A stretch of 64,000 nucleotides of DNA from Halorubrum hochsteinianum. GTDB lineage: Archaea; Halobacteriota; Halobacteria; Halobacteriales; Haloferacaceae. Made by a program: the position numbers and the translations under genes. The DNA is taken from positions 1,798,001 to 1,862,000 of the forward strand of contig NZ_CP098415.1 of assembly GCF_023702125.1 (NCBI RefSeq), given 5' to 3'. Below, one piece after another: positions 45,806 to 56,234 of the stretch (position 1 is the stretch's first letter; each line of letters starts with the position of its first letter). Below the pieces are notes generated by a model. That model was given only the letters and a program-made list of their open reading frames with translations, had not been told where the DNA came from and did no database searches.

Positions 45806-46927
45806 ATGGGAACAACTGACTCGTCGATCGTCGACGCCGCACGGGCCCGGCCGGGTCTCCTCTTCGTCGTCCTTCTCGGCGGCCTACTCCTCGTCGACCT
45901 CGCGGCGAAGCTCGGAGGGGTCGGTCTCGGCCCGATCGGGGGGTCGGTCTCGGTCGACCGACTCGGCTCGAACCTCTGGAACGGCGTCGTCATCGGGCTC
46001 GTGATCGGACTGGCCGGAATCGGGCTCTCGATGACGTACAGCATCCTCTCGTTCGCGAACTTCTCGCACGGCGACCTCGTCAGCGTCGGCGCGTTCTCGG
46101 GTTGGGGCGTCGCCTTCCTGATCGCCGGATTCGGCGATGTGCCAATTCGCGCGCTCTTGACCGTCCGGGACGCCGGGAACGCCTCGCCGGGTGACATCGG
46201 CGCGCACATCCTCTCGACGCCCGGCGCGATCCTCGTCGGACTGGTCGCCGCGTTCGTCGTCACCGCGCTGCTCGCGGTGGCGCTCGACCGGGCGTTCTAC
46301 AAGCCGATGCGCGACCGCGACGGCATCTCGCTGCTCATCGCCTCCATCGGCGCGGCGCTGATCGTGCGCTACCTGCTCCAGTTCGGCTACGGCTCCGACC
46401 GGCGGGGCGTGACCGCCAGCGTCGAGCAGTCGAACCTCGCGTTCGGTCCCCTCGGGATATCGGTGAACGCGCACGAACTCACCATCCTCGTGGCCGCGGT
46501 CGGACTGATGCTCGCGATGCACGCCATGCTCCAGCACACGAAGCTCGGCACGGCGATGCGCGCGATGGCCGACAACAAGGACCTCGCGCTCATCACCGGG
46601 ATCCCGGCCGAGCGCGTCGTCACCGCGACGTGGATCATCGGCGGCGGGCTCGCGGGCGCGTCCGGCTACCTCTACGTCCTGCTCCGCGGCACGATCCAGT
46701 TCGACTTCGGCTGGCTCCTCCTCCTCCTCATCTTCGCGGCCGTGATCCTGGGCGGGATCGGCTCCGTCTACGGGGCCATCGTCGGCGGACTGGTCATCGG
46801 GGTCGTGTTCACCACCTCGACGATCTGGATCCCGTCCGACTTCAATCAGGCCGCGGCGTTCGCCGTGATGATCCTGATGCTGCTCCTTCGCCCCGAGGGG
46901 CTGTTCGGAGGTGTTTCGACCGCATGA
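45806..46927 (+). CDS. livH: Branched-chain amino acid ABC transporter permease LivH
   Basis: The 373-residue membrane protein has about eight helices and the LivH signatures GIGLSMTYSILSFANFSHGD near the N-terminus, ALIVRYLLQFGYGSD and MADNKDLALITGIPAERVV (the EAA-type cytoplasmic loop). It forms the heterodimeric channel with LivM. It begins the livHMGF operon; its stop overlaps the livM start by 4 nt. Confidence 0.94.
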   Translation: MGTTDSSIVDAARARPGLLFVVLLGGLLLVDLAAKLGGVGLGPIGGSVSVDRLGSNLWNGVVIGLVIGLAGIGLSMTYSILSFANFSHGDLVSVGAFSGWGVAFLIAGFGDVPIRALLTVRDAGNASPGDIGAHILSTPGAILVGLVAAFVVTALLAVALDRAFYKPMRDRDGISLLIASIGAALIVRYLLQFGYGSDRRGVTASVEQSNLAFGPLGISVNAHELTILVAAVGLMLAMHAMLQHTKLGTAMRAMADNKDLALITGIPAERVVTATWIIGGGLAGASGYLYVLLRGTIQFDFGWLLLLLIFAAVILGGIGSVYGAIVGGLVIGVVFTTSTIWIPSDFNQAAAFAVMILMLLLRPEGLFGGVSTA

Positions 46928-48249
46928 GCGACGCAGACTCGGCCGCTCCGGAGCCCGACGCGCCCGACAGCGCCACGGCGGCGGTGATCGCGGCCGCGAA
47001 GGAGAGCGACTTCGCGCTCGTCGTCGGGACGCTGCTCGCCATCTACGCGGCCGCGGCGCTGCTCTCGTTCACCGACGGTCTCAACAGCGTCGTCGGACTC
47101 ATGGAGACGCTGACGTTCCTCGGCCTCGTCTACGCGCTCACCGCGCTCGCCTTGAACCTCCAGTGGGGCTACACCGGGCTGTTCAACATCGGCGTCGCCG
47201 GCTTCATGGCCGTCGGCGTGTACACGATGGGAATGGTCGTCCGGTCGCCGGACCCGGCCTTCGGCCCCCCCGGACTGGGGCTCCCGCTCCCGGTCGGTAT
47301 CCTCGCCGGGATGGGGATGGCGGCGCTGCTCGGGGGAATCGCGGCGCTGCCGGCGCTCCGGCTCAAGGCCGACTACCTCGCGATCGTGACGCTCGGCCTC
47401 TCCGAGATCATCCGGCTCTCGCTGCAGTCGAGCGCCTTCGACAACTTCCTGCGCGACGCGATCGGTGCCGGGACGGGCGGCGGCCGCGGGATGGGAATGC
47501 CGGACAACCCCGTCCGCGGCTTGTTCTTAGTCGACGGACAGGCGGGGAACCCGACCGCGCTCGGCGACCTCGTCTTCGGGATATTCGGGACCGACGGGCT
47601 GGGGATCTCGCACACCATCCTCATCGGCTGGGGGTACATCGCCGTCCTCGCCGGCTTCCTCGTCGGCTTCTACCTCCTGCTCGAACGCCTCGGCCGCTCG
47701 CCGTTCGGGCGGACGATGAAGGCGATCCGCGAGGACGAACTCGTCGCCAACTCGCTGGGCAAGGACGTGAACCTCGTGAAGATCAAGGTGTTCGTCATCG
47801 GCTGCGCGCTGATGGGCCTCGCCGGCATCCTCTGGTTCGGCAGTCAGGGCAACGTCTCGCCCACGCCGCAGTTCCGGCCGCTGCTCACGTTCTACGTGTT
47901 CATCGCGGTGATCATCGGCGGCTCCGGGTCGAACACCGGCTCCGTCCTCGGCGGCATCGTCTTCGCCGCGGTGCTGTTCGAGGGGCCGCGGCGCGTCGGC
48001 GGGGCCGTCCGCGGGCTCATCGACGCCGAGACGCCCAGCTCCTTCGCTGACGCGCTCGTCACGCTGGACCCGGTGACGCTCCTCGCGTACGCGACCGAAA
48101 ACGTCGCGCCGCTCCAGTTCGTCTTCCTCGGCCTCGTCTTAGTGTTCATCATCCACCGGCGGCCGGAGGGGGTCCTCGGCGACCGGATCGAGACGGCCGC
48201 GGCCGTCGACCTCTCCGAGCGGCCCGCCGGAGGTGAGTCCGATGAGTAG
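46924..48249 (+). CDS. livM: Branched-chain amino acid ABC transporter permease LivM
   Basis: The 441-residue permease has TALALNLQWGYTGLFNIGVA, ALRLKADYLAIVTLGLSEII and GRTMKAIREDELVANSLGKD (the EAA-type loop), and about ten helices. It is translationally coupled to livH (ATGA) and its end overlaps livG. The acidic N-terminal extension is typical of haloarchaea. Confidence 0.94.
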   Translation: MSDADSAAPEPDAPDSATAAVIAAAKESDFALVVGTLLAIYAAAALLSFTDGLNSVVGLMETLTFLGLVYALTALALNLQWGYTGLFNIGVAGFMAVGVYTMGMVVRSPDPAFGPPGLGLPLPVGILAGMGMAALLGGIAALPALRLKADYLAIVTLGLSEIIRLSLQSSAFDNFLRDAIGAGTGGGRGMGMPDNPVRGLFLVDGQAGNPTALGDLVFGIFGTDGLGISHTILIGWGYIAVLAGFLVGFYLLLERLGRSPFGRTMKAIREDELVANSLGKDVNLVKIKVFVIGCALMGLAGILWFGSQGNVSPTPQFRPLLTFYVFIAVIIGGSGSNTGSVLGGIVFAAVLFEGPRRVGGAVRGLIDAETPSSFADALVTLDPVTLLAYATENVAPLQFVFLGLVLVFIIHRRPEGVLGDRIETAAAVDLSERPAGGESDE

Positions 48250-49162
48250 CGACGCCCCCGATCCGAACGATCCGGCCGACGTCGCCGATGCGAGCGACGT
48301 CGCCGACGCCGTGGACGCGTCGGCCCCGGCCGCCGACGAACCGGAGGCGAATGACGGCGAGGTCGAGGAGGCGGCGAAACGCGTGCCGTCCGGGTCGCCC
48401 CCGCTCCGCGTCGAGGGGCTGGTGAAGCGGTTCGGCGGCGTCACCGCCGTCGACGGGGCCTCCTTCGAGGTCGAGTCCGGGTCGCTCACCGGGCTCATCG
48501 GCCCGAACGGCGCGGGGAAGTCGACCACGTTCAACTGTATCACCGGCGTCCACGAGCCGACCGCCGGGACGGTGTCCTTCCAGGGCGAGGACGTGACGGG
48601 GCTCAAACCGTACCAGATCGCGCGGAAGGGGCTGGTTCGGACGTTCCAGATCGCCCGGGAGCTCTCCGAGATGACCGTCTTGGAGAACCTGATGCTCGCG
48701 CCGCAGGGACAGCTCGGCGAGTCCGCGATCCGCGCGGTGACGCCCGGCCTCCGCGGCGCGGTCGTCGAGGAGGAGACGGCGCTGCGCGAGCGCGCCTGGG
48801 AGACGCTGGAGTTCTTCGAGATCGATCACCTCGCGCACGAGCACGCGGGGAACCTCTCCGGCGGGCAGCGGAAGCTGCTGGAGATGGCCCGCGTGCTGAT
48901 GACCGACCCCGAGATGGTGCTGCTCGACGAGCCGCTCGCCGGGGTCAACCCGACCTTAGAGGAGAAGCTGTTGGACCGGATCCACGACCTGCGCGCGGAC
49001 GGCTACACCTTCCTGCTCGTCGAACACGACATGGACGTCATCATGGACAACTGCGAACGCGTCATCGTCATGCATCAGGGAAGCGTGCTCGCCGAGGGGA
49101 CCGGCGACGAGATACGGAACGACGAGCGGGTCATCGAGGCGTACCTGGGGGAGGACCTATGA
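48242..49162 (+). CDS. livG: Branched-chain amino acid ABC transporter ATP-binding protein LivG
   Basis: The 306-residue ATPase has a Walker A (GLIGPNGAGKSTTF), a Q loop, the signature LSGGQRKLLEMAR and a Walker B (EMVLLDEPLAGVNP). An acidic leader of about 50 residues precedes the domain. I chose the ATG at 48242, 3 codons after a possible GTG. It overlaps livM and livF. Confidence 0.94.
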   Translation: MSSDAPDPNDPADVADASDVADAVDASAPAADEPEANDGEVEEAAKRVPSGSPPLRVEGLVKRFGGVTAVDGASFEVESGSLTGLIGPNGAGKSTTFNCITGVHEPTAGTVSFQGEDVTGLKPYQIARKGLVRTFQIARELSEMTVLENLMLAPQGQLGESAIRAVTPGLRGAVVEEETALRERAWETLEFFEIDHLAHEHAGNLSGGQRKLLEMARVLMTDPEMVLLDEPLAGVNPTLEEKLLDRIHDLRADGYTFLLVEHDMDVIMDNCERVIVMHQGSVLAEGTGDEIRNDERVIEAYLGEDL

Positions 49163-50022
49163 GCGCCGACGACGCGAACGACGACATCGCGGATCCGCCC
49201 GAGACGACCGAACCCGGGGCGGAGAGCGACGGCCCGCCGACCGAATCCGGGGCGGAGAGCGGCGACTCGCCCACCGACGCCGAGGTCAGCGCGGGGACGG
49301 ACCACGCGCTCGGCGGCGACGCGATCCTGCGGATCCGCGACCTCGACGCCGGCTACGGCGACCTCCAGATCCTCTCGGACGTGGTCCTCGACGTCGCCGA
49401 CGAGGAGTACGTCACCATCGTCGGCCCGAACGGGGCCGGCAAGTCGACGGTGATGAAGACGGTCTTCGGGCTCACGACCCACATGGGCGGCACCGTCGAG
49501 TTCGAGGGCGAGCCGATCCACGGGCTCGCGCCCGAGCAGATCATCCGCGAGGGGATCGGGTTCGTCCCGCAGAACGACAACGTCTTCCCCGGACTCAGCG
49601 TCCGCGAGAACCTGGAGATGGGCGCGTACATCCTCGACGAGGTGCCCGAAGACCAGATCGAGACGATCTACGACCGGTTCCCCATCCTCCGCGAGCGCAG
49701 CGAGCAGAAGGCGGGGACGCTCTCCGGCGGTCAGCGGCAGATGGTGGCGATGGGGCGGGCGCTCATGCTCGACCCCGACCTCCTGCTGCTCGACGAGCCG
49801 TCGGCGGGGCTCGCGCCCGACCTCGTCGACGACATGTTCGACCGGATCGACCGGATCAACGACTCGGGGACGGCGGTGCTGATGGTCGAGCAGAACGCGA
49901 AGGAGGCGCTCCGCCGCTGCGACCGCGGCTACGTGCTGGTGAACGGCGGGAACCGGTACACCGACCGCGGCGACGTGCTGCTCGCCGACGAGGACGTGCG
50001 GCGCGACTTCCTCGGCGGATAA
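49159..50022 (+). CDS. livF: Branched-chain amino acid ABC transporter ATP-binding protein LivF
   Basis: The 287-residue ATPase has Walker A (TIVGPNGAGKSTVMKTVF), the signature LSGGQRQMVAMGRAL and Walker B (DLLLLDEPSAGLAP). It is the last gene of livHMGF and overlaps livG by 4 nt. Its acidic N-terminal extension has a short duplicated segment (PTESGAESG-like). Confidence 0.94.
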   Translation: MSADDANDDIADPPETTEPGAESDGPPTESGAESGDSPTDAEVSAGTDHALGGDAILRIRDLDAGYGDLQILSDVVLDVADEEYVTIVGPNGAGKSTVMKTVFGLTTHMGGTVEFEGEPIHGLAPEQIIREGIGFVPQNDNVFPGLSVRENLEMGAYILDEVPEDQIETIYDRFPILRERSEQKAGTLSGGQRQMVAMGRALMLDPDLLLLDEPSAGLAPDLVDDMFDRIDRINDSGTAVLMVEQNAKEALRRCDRGYVLVNGGNRYTDRGDVLLADEDVRRDFLGG

Positions 50023-50387: not shown

Positions 50388-51770
50388 CTACTGGTTCAGC
50401 ACGCTCGACCACTGGCTGGTGTACGTCGCCTGGTTCGGCTCGAAGGAGACGCGCTGGTCGATGGTGCCGTCTCGTTCCTCGAAGGCGGCGACGTACGACT
50501 CTTCGAGCGACTGGCCGTAGGCGTCGTTGAGGTACAGCGTGCCGGAAGTCTCCGCGCCGACGATGTCGCCGACGGCCAGGTCGGCCATCGCGGGCCCCTG
50601 AAGCAGGTCGGACGGGGCGGTCCGGAAGATGTAGTCGTTGTCGTCTAAGTCCGTGACGTTCGGGTCCGTCGACGACGGCGAGATGCCCACGACGCCGTTC
50701 GGGATGAACACCTGATCGGACACCTGGAGGTTGACGTTCGAGGAGGCGGGACCGACGACCGCTCCGAAGCCCGCGTTGACGAGGGCGTTCGCGCCGGAGA
50801 TGCCGGCCTGCGGGTCGGTCTGGGTGTCCTCGACTCTGGTCTCGACGTCGACGTTGATGTCGGCGTCGTTGACCTGCGTGGCGGCCAGCAGCGCGCCGTC
50901 GCGGATCGGTCCGCCGAGCGGCCCGAGGTCACCGGTTTCCGGCATCAGCACGCCGACGCGCGCGGTGAACGAGTCGACGCCGACCGGGTCCGCGGCCGTC
51001 GCGTTCCGGTCCTCGTCGGAGAGTTCGTTCCCGAACTCGACGGTGTCGAGGGTGACAAGTTCCCCGTCCTGGAAGTCGGTGATGTCGTACGCGGCGGTGG
51101 CCATGTCGCCGTTGACGTCGAAGTTGACGCTGGAGGACGCGCCAACGTAGTGGACCGGGTCGCCCGCGGCGACCGTCTCGACCGCCTCGGGGAGGTTCGA
51201 GGGGCCGAACTCCTCGCCGCCGGGGTTGGCGACCGTGCGGACGCGGTCGCGGATCGCCTCGCCGCTGTTCTCGCCCGCGGCGGTGGCCGCGAGGATCTCG
51301 ACTGCCATGGCGTCGTACGCCTGCGAGGTGAACACGCCCGGCTCCTCGTCGTACTCCTCCTGATACGACTCGGCGAAGAAGTCGGCCCCGGGGCCGCCGG
51401 CCGAGGGTGCCGTGCCGATGACGTTGTTCATGTCGTTGTCGACCTCGCCGGGGAGGTCCCCGTCGATCAGCCCGTCGGGGACGATGATGTCCAGATCCGG
51501 CGCGCTGTCGGCGAACTCCGCGTAGAAGTCGCGGAACAGCTGGATGCCGGACTGCGGGAACCCGACGACCATCACGGCGTCGGGGACGGACGCGGAGTCC
51601 CCGCCGTCGCCGCCGTCCTCGCCGTCCATGCCGTCGTCGCCGTCCTCGCCGTCCATGCCGTCGCCGCCGTCCTCGCCGTCGCCGCTCTCGGTCGAGCAGC
51701 CGGCGATCCCCGCGATCCCGACCGCACCGGCACCTCTGAGTACGTCGCGTCGCTGGATTCTTCGCGTCAT
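50388..51770 (-). CDS. Liv-type amino acid-binding lipoprotein with circularly permuted order
   Basis: The 460-residue protein has a Tat-type signal (RRIQRRDVLRGAGAVG) and a lipobox ending at Cys25, then an acidic Gly-Asp-Met repeat linker to about residue 62. The family normally starts with a strand like ARVGVLMPETGDLGPLGGPI and runs through ATYTSQWSSVLNQ into PDAVMVVGFPQSGIQLFRDF. Here PDAVMVVGFPQSG comes first, at residue 63. It runs to the usual C-terminal end (YVGASSSVNFDVNGDM, VEFGNEL), and only then follows ARVGVLMPETGDLG at about residue 270. The protein stops at SQWSSVLNQ, exactly where the first half should have continued. All parts of the fold are present once. It is presumably the partner of livHMGF, encoded convergently. 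The start is the ATG at 51770. Confidence 0.8.
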   Translation of the reverse strand: MTRRIQRRDVLRGAGAVGIAGIAGCSTESGDGEDGGDGMDGEDGDDGMDGEDGGDGGDSASVPDAVMVVGFPQSGIQLFRDFYAEFADSAPDLDIIVPDGLIDGDLPGEVDNDMNNVIGTAPSAGGPGADFFAESYQEEYDEEPGVFTSQAYDAMAVEILAATAAGENSGEAIRDRVRTVANPGGEEFGPSNLPEAVETVAAGDPVHYVGASSSVNFDVNGDMATAAYDITDFQDGELVTLDTVEFGNELSDEDRNATAADPVGVDSFTARVGVLMPETGDLGPLGGPIRDGALLAATQVNDADINVDVETRVEDTQTDPQAGISGANALVNAGFGAVVGPASSNVNLQVSDQVFIPNGVVGISPSSTDPNVTDLDDNDYIFRTAPSDLLQGPAMADLAVGDIVGAETSGTLYLNDAYGQSLEESYVAAFEERDGTIDQRVSFEPNQATYTSQWSSVLNQ

Positions 51771-52030
51771 TCTGTGACGGTATACCATACGAGTCGTTAT
51801 AAGTGTATCCACGGGCACAAATACGACACCGCGGGCAGTCGAACGATCAGACCGGACTGCTTCCCGTCTACCGCGTTTTTACGGCCGGTTCGCTCAGCGA
51901 GGATCGGGCGCGGAACGCGCTTCGTTCCACGGGCGTGACAGGAAGGGCGTCCGCGGCTGGAGGGGATCCGTTACAGAAACGAGGTCGCCGCCGCGGTCGC
52001 GGCCACGACCGGCCCCCTGCTCGTCGCGTC
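51771..52030. other. Promoter region of the binding-protein gene
   Basis: On the minus strand a TATA-like CTTATAACG lies about 30 bp upstream of the binding-protein ATG. Nothing else is recognised between it and the gamma-glutamyltransferase stop. Confidence 0.4.
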
Positions 52031-53689
52031 TCAGTACCCCTGCGCGTTCCCGTCCTTCCGGGGTTCGGTGGCGGCCGAGAGGACGCCCTTCCGGTTCCGG
52101 GCGATCTGCGCGCCGCCGAACATGACCGGCGAGAGCGTCCGCACGTCGTGGTCCTTCCGGACCAACTTGGCCGCGGCGTCGTCGTCGAAGTGCGGTTCGA
52201 GCGCCAGTTCGCCGCTCTCCCGGTACCGCCACCGCGGCTCGTCGAGCGCCCGCTGGAGGGGCATCTCGTAGTCGACGAGGTTCGAGATCACCTGGACGTG
52301 GCCCTGCGGCTGCATGTAGCCGCCCATCACGCCGAACGCCGCCCAGTCGTCCTCGTCGAACTTTACGACGCCCGGGATGAGCGTGTGGAAGGGGCGCTTG
52401 CCGGGTTCGAGTGCGTTCGGGTGGTCCGGGTCAAGAGAGAACGACGCCCCGCGGTTCTGAAGGGCGATCCCCGTGTCGCCCGCGACGAGGCCGGAGCCGA
52501 AGCCGGCGAACCGCGAGTTGATGTAGGAGACGACGTTGCCGTCCTCGTCGGCGACGGTGAGGAGGACGGTGTCGGCGTCCTCGGCGTTCGCGTTCGGCAC
52601 GCCGAAGGAGACGTCGTGCGAGGCCGTCTCGCCCACGCCCGCGGCGCGCTCGGCCGCCCACTCCTCGGACGCCAGCGGCGGGATTTCCTCGTACTCGGGG
52701 TCGGTGATGTAGCGGTGGCCGTCGTGGAAGGCCCGCTTCAACGCCTCGGCGAAGTAGTGGACGCGCTCCGGGGAGTCGTAGTCGTACTCGCCCGCGCCGA
52801 GTTCGGACGCGACGTTGAGCGCCTCCAAGGCGATCAGCCCTTGGTTGTTCGGCGGCAGTTCGTACACCTCGGCCCCGTTGTAGGTGGTCGACACCGGGTC
52901 GGGCCACTCGACCTCGAAGTCGGCGAGGTCGTCGACGGTCATGAACCCGCCCTGCGACTGGACCTCCTCGGCGATCGCCTCGGCGATCTCACCCTCGTAG
53001 ACCACGTCGGCCCCCTCCTCGGCGATCCTCCGCATCGACTCGCCGAGCCGGGGGAGCGTCACCGTTTGACCGATCTCCGGCGGCTCGCCGTCGAACAGGA
53101 ACGCCTCGCGGGCGTGGTCGTCGGTGAACAGCGCGTCGGCGCTCGCCCAGTAGGAGGCGATGACCTCCGACACCGGGTAGCCCTCGGTCGCGTAGCGGAT
53201 GGCGGGTGAGAGCGCGTCCGCGAGGCTCAGTCGGCCCAGTTCCTCGACGGTCGCCTCCCAGCCCCGCGCCGTCCCGGGCACCGTGACCGCGTGCGGGCCG
53301 TAGAAGGGCATCCCGGCCTCGCCGGCGTCGTCGACCGCGTAGCCCCCGTCGTCGGGGTAGTACGAGTCCGCGTCGTCGTCCTCGGCCAGCGCGGCCCGGA
53401 CGTTCTCGATCGTCGCGTCGGCGGGCGCGCCGCCGCACGAGCGCATCGCGCCGACCTCGCCGTCGGCGGTCCGGTACAGCGCGAACACGTCGCCGCCGAG
53501 CCCGGTCGAGGTCGGTTCGACGACGTTGAGCGCGGCCGCGGTCGCCACCGCGGCGTCGAACGCGTTGCCGCCCTCGCGTAGCACTTCGATCCCCGCCTCG
53601 CTGGCGAGCGGCTGACTGGTCGCCACCACGCCGCGCTGCCCGTACACGGTCGATCGGCGCGACGTGAATCGGTCCAAGTCTGGCTCCAT
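52031..53689 (-). CDS. ggt: Gamma-glutamyltransferase-family Ntn hydrolase
   Basis: The 552-residue precursor would be cut before Thr374 (ADTVLLTVADEDGNVVSYIN), which becomes the N-terminal nucleophile of the small subunit. Other signatures are GGNAFDAAVATAAALNVVEP, STGLGGDVFAL, PPNNQGLIALEALN, GFGSGLVAGDTGIALQNRG and MGGYMQPQGHVQVI. It cleaves or transfers gamma-glutamyl groups. Haloarchaea use gamma-glutamylcysteine as their main thiol, which is a plausible substrate. The start at 53689 has no obvious signal peptide, so it is probably cytoplasmic. Confidence 0.88.
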   Translation of the reverse strand: MEPDLDRFTSRRSTVYGQRGVVATSQPLASEAGIEVLREGGNAFDAAVATAAALNVVEPTSTGLGGDVFALYRTADGEVGAMRSCGGAPADATIENVRAALAEDDDADSYYPDDGGYAVDDAGEAGMPFYGPHAVTVPGTARGWEATVEELGRLSLADALSPAIRYATEGYPVSEVIASYWASADALFTDDHAREAFLFDGEPPEIGQTVTLPRLGESMRRIAEEGADVVYEGEIAEAIAEEVQSQGGFMTVDDLADFEVEWPDPVSTTYNGAEVYELPPNNQGLIALEALNVASELGAGEYDYDSPERVHYFAEALKRAFHDGHRYITDPEYEEIPPLASEEWAAERAAGVGETASHDVSFGVPNANAEDADTVLLTVADEDGNVVSYINSRFAGFGSGLVAGDTGIALQNRGASFSLDPDHPNALEPGKRPFHTLIPGVVKFDEDDWAAFGVMGGYMQPQGHVQVISNLVDYEMPLQRALDEPRWRYRESGELALEPHFDDDAAAKLVRKDHDVRTLSPVMFGGAQIARNRKGVLSAATEPRKDGNAQGY

Positions 53690-53792
53690 ACACACCCGTC
53701 CGGCGGCCGGGAGAATAAAGCCCCGACCGGATGTGTTCGGTGTCTCTCCCGACCGCCCGGTTCGGGCATCGCCCGCCGTGACGCGCGGGCGT

Positions 53793-54373: not shown

Positions 54374-55045
54374 ATGAATCGACGACGGGCGCTGACGCTC
54401 GCCGGCGCGGCCGCGGTCGGCTCGCTCGCGGGATGCGCCGGCGGCGGCTCCGGCGAGTCCGGCGGCGAGGGCGGGCAGCCGCTGCGGGAGCATCCGGCCG
54501 CCGCGGGGCTGGACGGACTGCCGCGCCGCGGGTCGCTGGACGGACACGCGATCCTCACCTTCGAGGACCCGTCCTGTACCAGGTGCCGGGCCTTCCACGA
54601 GGAGGTCGTTCCCCGGATACGGTCGAACGTCGTCGACCCGGGTGAAGGCGCGTACGTGCTCCGCACTTACCCCGTCGTCTACCCGTGGGGCGAGTCGGCG
54701 ACGCAGGCGCTCGCGTCGACGCACGTCCGGAGCGAGCCGGCGTTCTGGTCGCTGCTCGACCACTACTTCGCCACTCAGGGGCAGTTCGACGCGGACAACG
54801 TCCTCGACCGGACCGAGGCGTTCCTCGACGCGCAGACCGACCTCGACGGCGGCGCGGTCGTCGCCGACGCCGCGAACGAGGCCCACGACGAGGCGGTCCG
54901 GGGCAACCTCGACGCCGCCGACGCCGCCGGTCTCGGGCGGACCACCCCCGTCGTCCTGCTGTTCCGAGACGGGGAGTACGTCACCTCGGCCAACGGGAGC
55001 GTGAGCTACGACCTCATCGCGGAGACGCTCGGAGTCGACGGCTGA
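54374..55045 (+). CDS. DsbA-like thioredoxin-fold lipoprotein
   Basis: The 223-residue protein has a Tat/lipoprotein signal (MNRRRALTLAGAAAVGSLAG, Cys21) and a thioredoxin-like domain with CTRC in ILTFEDPSCTRCRAFHEEVV, a helical insert and a cis-Pro segment (GRTTPVVLLF). It is exported and anchored outside, where it likely catalyses disulfide exchange. Its stop overlaps the start of a membrane-protein gene by one base (TGATG), so the two are made together. Confidence 0.85.
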   Translation: MNRRRALTLAGAAAVGSLAGCAGGGSGESGGEGGQPLREHPAAAGLDGLPRRGSLDGHAILTFEDPSCTRCRAFHEEVVPRIRSNVVDPGEGAYVLRTYPVVYPWGESATQALASTHVRSEPAFWSLLDHYFATQGQFDADNVLDRTEAFLDAQTDLDGGAVVADAANEAHDEAVRGNLDAADAAGLGRTTPVVLLFRDGEYVTSANGSVSYDLIAETLGVDG

Positions 55046-55647: not shown

Positions 55648-56234
55648 TCGGGGGAGATCGTCCGTCGCTCGGTCGCGTCGACCCGCGTTCGCGTGGAGTG
55701 AAAGAGGCCTCGGTACTCATAGGGCTCGTCGCCGCCGGGTGCCGAGTCCGGCTCGGAGCGGTGGTTCGTCATCGGCCGCTCGTCGGTAGCGGCGGAGACA
55801 CCTAAAAAGGCCCGACCGTGTCGCGTCCCGGCCGTCGCCGCCTCAATGCGACGAGCCGGCGTACGCGTTCCAGCGGTCGGTCCCGTTCGCTATCCGGCGG
55901 GCGTCCGACGGGTCGAACGTCCCCGCCGCCTGCGCGACCGCCTCGGCCGCGGTCGGCAGGTCGTCTGGACCCTCCTTCGCGTCGTCACCGTCCGAATCGG
56001 CGGACGGCTCCGATCGATCGATACGTCGCTCGGTCTCGGTCGCCTCGCGCGTGCTCGGACCGCCGGGACCGGTCGTCGTCCCCGCCGTCGAGCGTGCGTC
56101 AGTCGTGTACTACGGGCGGCACGTATCACTTCACGGGCGTATCCTTCATAATTGTTTATGTTGGTATGAGGATCGCCGGTCGCGCTGGCTACCGGGCCGA
56201 CCGCGCGGTGACTACTAGGCCGGCCACGCGGTGA
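55648..56234. other. 587-bp gap with a startless ORF remnant
   Basis: On the minus strand, a frame from a TAG near 56125 to a TGA at 55840 reads as an acidic C-terminus (RRIDRSEPSADSDGDD, then TFDPSDARRIANGTDRW) but has no ATG, GTG or TTG. A 61-codon ATG frame also exists at 55772-55587 but overlaps the membrane gene. Neither is convincing. A short AT-rich run lies near 56145-56160. Confidence 0.4.

Follow-up and report, generated by a model that had tools for sequence, protein, structure and literature searches.

A Type I substrate-binding protein with a naturally permuted chain has been described before. TpMglB-2 (Tp0684) of Treponema pallidum is a binding lipoprotein of the sugar-binding MglB family whose structure has been solved; it binds glucose, changes conformation, and has a fourth crossing between the lobes, and its authors proposed the subclass "Type Ic / Cluster Bc" for it (PMC4990184). 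In that protein the cut lies in the N lobe, so that only three strands move, the moved part has almost no sequence similarity, and the permutation was not described as recurrent beside normal forms at one locus. The Liv-type (HAAT) amino-acid-binding proteins, which include LivJ/LivK and the solved proteins 3TD9, 4N0Q, and 4GNR (Pfam PF13458, Peripla_BP_6), are partners of the LivHMGF transporter components. No natural Liv-type or haloarchaeal permutant was found in the open-access literature searched, to which subscription papers did not belong, and in this respect the statement of a first-pass annotation that no such case had been described holds. Here we describe a permuted Liv-type binding protein encoded in a 64,000-nucleotide stretch of the Halorubrum hochsteinianum genome (NCBI RefSeq assembly GCF_023702125.1, contig NZ_CP098415.1, positions 1,798,001 to 1,862,000; referred to here as the window) and its distribution in the Halobacteriales.

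A permuted Liv-type binding protein

The binding protein gene is an open reading frame of 460 codons with an ATG start, or 476 codons if the frame is read from an upstream GTG at 51818. The protein begins with a twin-arginine signal (a weak match to TAT_signal) and a lipobox, followed by a Gly/Asp-rich tether. It matches Pfam Peripla_BP_6 above the gathering score (99.7 bits against 31.7), as do 16 of 16 permuted members, but positions 2 to 186 of the model fall on the C-terminal half of the protein. Besides the signal, the only other matches were to ANF_receptor and, weakly, to Peripla_BP_5 and LppC, and homology to MglB was not found. Residues 63 to 245 match the end of solved Liv proteins, and residues 272 to 460 match the beginning. 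A profile of 16 permuted proteins aligned its positions 204 to 397 to residues 13 to 202 of the Thermotoga protein 3TD9 and its positions 5 to 170 to residues 205 to 349, which places the cut between residues 202 and 205. The half that is normally C-terminal (segment B) matched only the C-terminal half of 3TD9 and 4GNR when it was searched alone. The chain therefore begins in the middle of the usual sequence, reaches the old C terminus, passes through a 26-residue linker into the old N terminus (segment A), and stops just before the point where it began. In contrast to TpMglB-2, about half of the chain is moved. The first-pass annotation, which had proposed a natural circular permutation of a Liv-type binding protein, was correct in this and in its placement of the ends and linker.

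Table 1. Features of the permuted binding protein locus and related loci. Coordinates without a prefix refer to the window; prefixed coordinates refer to the genome (G) or locus (L) named.
Feature	Coordinates	Strand	Remarks
Permuted amino-acid-binding lipoprotein gene	50388..51770	-	460 aa, ATG start
Twin-arginine signal and lipobox	51696..51770	-	RRIQRRDVLRGAG...IAGC
Gly/Asp-rich tether	51585..51695	-	Between lipobox Cys and the domain
Segment B	51036..51584	-	Normally the C-terminal half, here first; PDAVMVVGFPQS...LDTVE
Linker	50958..51035	-	26 residues joining the old C terminus to the old N terminus; FGNELSDEDRNATAADPVGVDSFTAR
Segment A	50391..50957	-	Normally the N-terminal half, here last; VGVLMPETG...SVLNQ, followed by the stop
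LivH-like permease	45806..46927	+	Convergent to the binding protein
LivM-like permease	46924..48249	+	
LivG-like ATPase	48233..49162	+	
LivF-like ATPase	49159..50022	+	Tail to tail with the binding protein gene
Gamma-glutamyltransferase	52031-53767	-	Just upstream of the binding protein
Thioredoxin-like lipoprotein with a lipobox	54374-55045	+	Weak match to NCBIfam NF041057
C/D box guide RNA sR-tMet	55706-55777	-	Rfam RF02163, 69.6 bits
Normal-order paralogue in the same genome	G000:C1:1658076-1659212		Both halves in normal order
Permuted gene interrupted by an insertion	L147:4198-5364		Genome G016
Tandem permuted genes	L113:4666-7489		
Tandem permuted genes	L114:4799-7630		

The permuted order is not an assembly error, and the gene is not decayed. 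Colinear relatives were present in 49 of 53 genomes of the genus, 32 of them at 74 to 97% identity and 17 at about 50%, whereas three others carried a normal-order relative and one had none above the threshold. Named strains with the permuted form include H. tebenquichense, H. coriense, H. sodomense, and H. lipolyticum. Substitutions between close relatives were concentrated at third codon positions (e.g., 7/5/39 against H. tebenquichense). In one of the 32 genomes the gene was split by an insertion of about 1.4 kb, whose 388-residue open reading frame looks like an insertion sequence transposase; the two parts of the gene flank it. Each segment occurs once in the window protein, and no open reading frame among the loci examined had two copies of either half.

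Distribution and genomic context

Among 394 genomes drawn from the Halobacteriales, 161 carried a permuted form; these belong to 37 genera and 9 families. The threshold of 1e-75 was set so that split normal-order matches, the best of which reached 5.3e-73, could not pass. In a sample of the phylum, matches outside the order covered one half per match, and the four relatives fetched were in normal order. The plasmid matches listed came in two pieces, which is what normal order gives, and phage matches covered one half only. The form is widespread and not the isolated case as which the first-pass annotation had treated it.

Normal-order relatives are common as well. In most loci of this family, whether permuted or normal, the binding protein gene stands tail to tail with livF, followed by livG, livM, and livH, although some loci were too short or showed only part of this arrangement and two (L142 and L146) differed. 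Normal-order relatives at the same convergent liv locus (e.g., loci L088 to L093, L128, and L129) were about 55 to 69% identical in each half for those measured. The gamma-glutamyltransferase gene upstream of the binding protein is kept in nearly all loci of the window's type and might supply the importer with amino acids from gamma-glutamyl compounds; one normal-order genome of the genus (G042, locus L093) has the same upstream gene at 81% identity. An Rfam search near the binding protein gene gave nothing that bears on it. Species of the window's genus (L093, L070, L045, and others) carry one of three versions of this importer, two of them permuted (P1 and P2, defined below) and one of normal order, with liv permeases as low as 41 to 61% identical between versions, as if whole cassettes had been exchanged. 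Two permuted binding protein genes were found in tandem beside one liv gene set in two genomes (L113 and L114), and the second copies lack a lipobox cysteine.

The cut site is the same in every permuted group. When each protein was split into segments A and B with profiles, the distance from the end of the A profile to the stop was 5 residues in all members of the P1, P3, and P4 clades and 4 to 8 residues in P2, while 49 of 54 normal proteins ran 6 residues to the start of B. Segment B starts directly after the tether with the motif (P/V)(D/E/G)xxx(V/I)(I/V)G(Y/F)P. The linkers are 22 to 28 residues long, and those of P1 differ in sequence from those of P2 and P3.

Phylogeny of permuted and normal forms

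To ask whether the permuted genes share one origin, the segments of all proteins were put in one order and trees were built. The permuted proteins fell into four clades: P1 (the Halorubrum type of this window), P2 (the most widespread), and P3 and P4 (both in family f4, one of the families in our sample of the order). P1 was nested among normal-order genes. The binding protein tree needs at least four changes of order, also in the 5 to 95% range of bootstraps, and the starred branches alone force two or three. The transporter genes, an independent data set, gave the same picture with five changes and, with long branches removed, rejected a single permuted clade on LivHMGF alone (AU test, p = 5e-84). 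A single clade was also rejected on the binding protein (p = 0.02) and on segment A alone (p = 0.014) but not on segment B alone (p = 0.59 in a quick and 0.22 in a careful analysis). In pairwise tests on the binding protein plus transporter, joining was rejected for P1+P2 (4e-5), P1+P3 (4e-6), P1+P4 (6e-5), P2+P3 (0.003), and P2+P4 (0.005), but P3+P4 was not rejected (0.38) and may represent one event. On the binding protein alone, P1+P2 (0.004) and P1+P3 (0.008) were rejected, and P2+P3 was borderline (0.05). It should be noted that the clades tested pairwise were named after the tree had been seen, which the AU test does not allow for, and that the outgroup used for parsimony is distant. With this outgroup, 4 to 5 gains of the permuted order compare with 1 gain plus 5 to 8 losses.

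We consider it likely, although not certain, that normal order is ancestral and that the permuted order arose at least three times (P1, P2, and P3/P4) at the same bond, in genes with the same convergent liv neighborhood. The identical cut site in every clade would, however, be expected from a single origin. One ancient permutation near the base of the haloarchaeal family, followed by several reversions to normal order that would each be a second permutation, would explain the shared site without a hotspot, and the tandem permuted pairs offer a substrate from which normal order could be remade. This scenario is less parsimonious, P1 lies beside normal-order sisters in the binding protein, segment B, and transporter trees, the P1 linker differs from that of P2, and the outgroups are in normal order; we regard it as possible but unlikely. 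In either case several permutation events between the same two orders are needed. It is also conceivable that a single permuted gene spread by lateral transfer and recombined with resident genes, so that segment A and the transporter look local while segment B keeps the common ancestry. Within segment B the permuted clades are slightly more alike than expected (P1-P3, 59%, against 58% for P1 and its normal sisters; P1-P2, 54%, against 51% for those sisters and P2). The free segment B tree nevertheless gave four permuted groups, with P1 beside normal genes of the same sister group as in the other trees, and this explanation appears doubtful but, in the absence of a breakpoint scan, is not ruled out.

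The reasons for the repeated use of one site are less clear. The first-pass annotation had suggested that the Gly-Asp linker could have mediated a tandem duplication followed by trimming. Similarity of the tether DNA to the cut site would give a mechanism for repeated deletion, but in 36 normal-order genes the cut site was no more similar to the linker DNA than other sites (mean percentile, 0.55). No remnants of the removed halves were found next to permuted genes, apart from the tandem permuted pairs, and no fused tandem intermediates were seen. A duplication route remains plausible on general grounds, but nothing here shows it. Adaptation to lipid anchoring, put forward for TpMglB-2 (PMC4990184), also seems an improbable driving force: permuted forms are nearly all lipobox proteins (45 of 48), but normal-order relatives are lipobox proteins just as often (39 of 42) with tethers of the same length (p = 0.96), although an effect of tether position alone would escape this comparison. 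We hypothesize that the reason is structural. By analogy with LivJ/LivK, the cut falls in a loop between a helix and a strand that is expected to lie in lobe 2, away from the three hinge crossings, and it may be that few other breaks keep lobe closing and transporter docking intact.

Inferred function and implications

By homology and gene neighborhood, the protein is inferred to be the lipid-anchored amino acid receptor of a haloarchaeal LivHMGF-type ABC importer. Motifs like GPASS, SPSST, and PDG, which in LivJ/LivK probably hold the amino and carboxyl groups of the ligand, are conserved among the permuted proteins. After Tat export and lipidation, the ordinary two-lobed fold and amino acid cleft should form, with the membrane tether moved to lobe 2 and an extra connection between the lobes. 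AlphaFold, run with a shallow alignment, gave no usable model (pLDDT 36), and this fold is therefore inferred from sequence alone.

Domain searches see only half of these proteins well, and the cut offers a naturally tested site for sensor design with Liv-type proteins. Natural circular permutants are mostly known as single old events between distant proteins. In the haloarchaea, permuted and normal forms of a working importer are both common, are about 50 to 69% identical, share their neighbors, and appear to have switched several times at one site. This gives replicated natural material for asking what limits circular permutation and whether the tether position or an extra connection between the lobes changes binding or docking.
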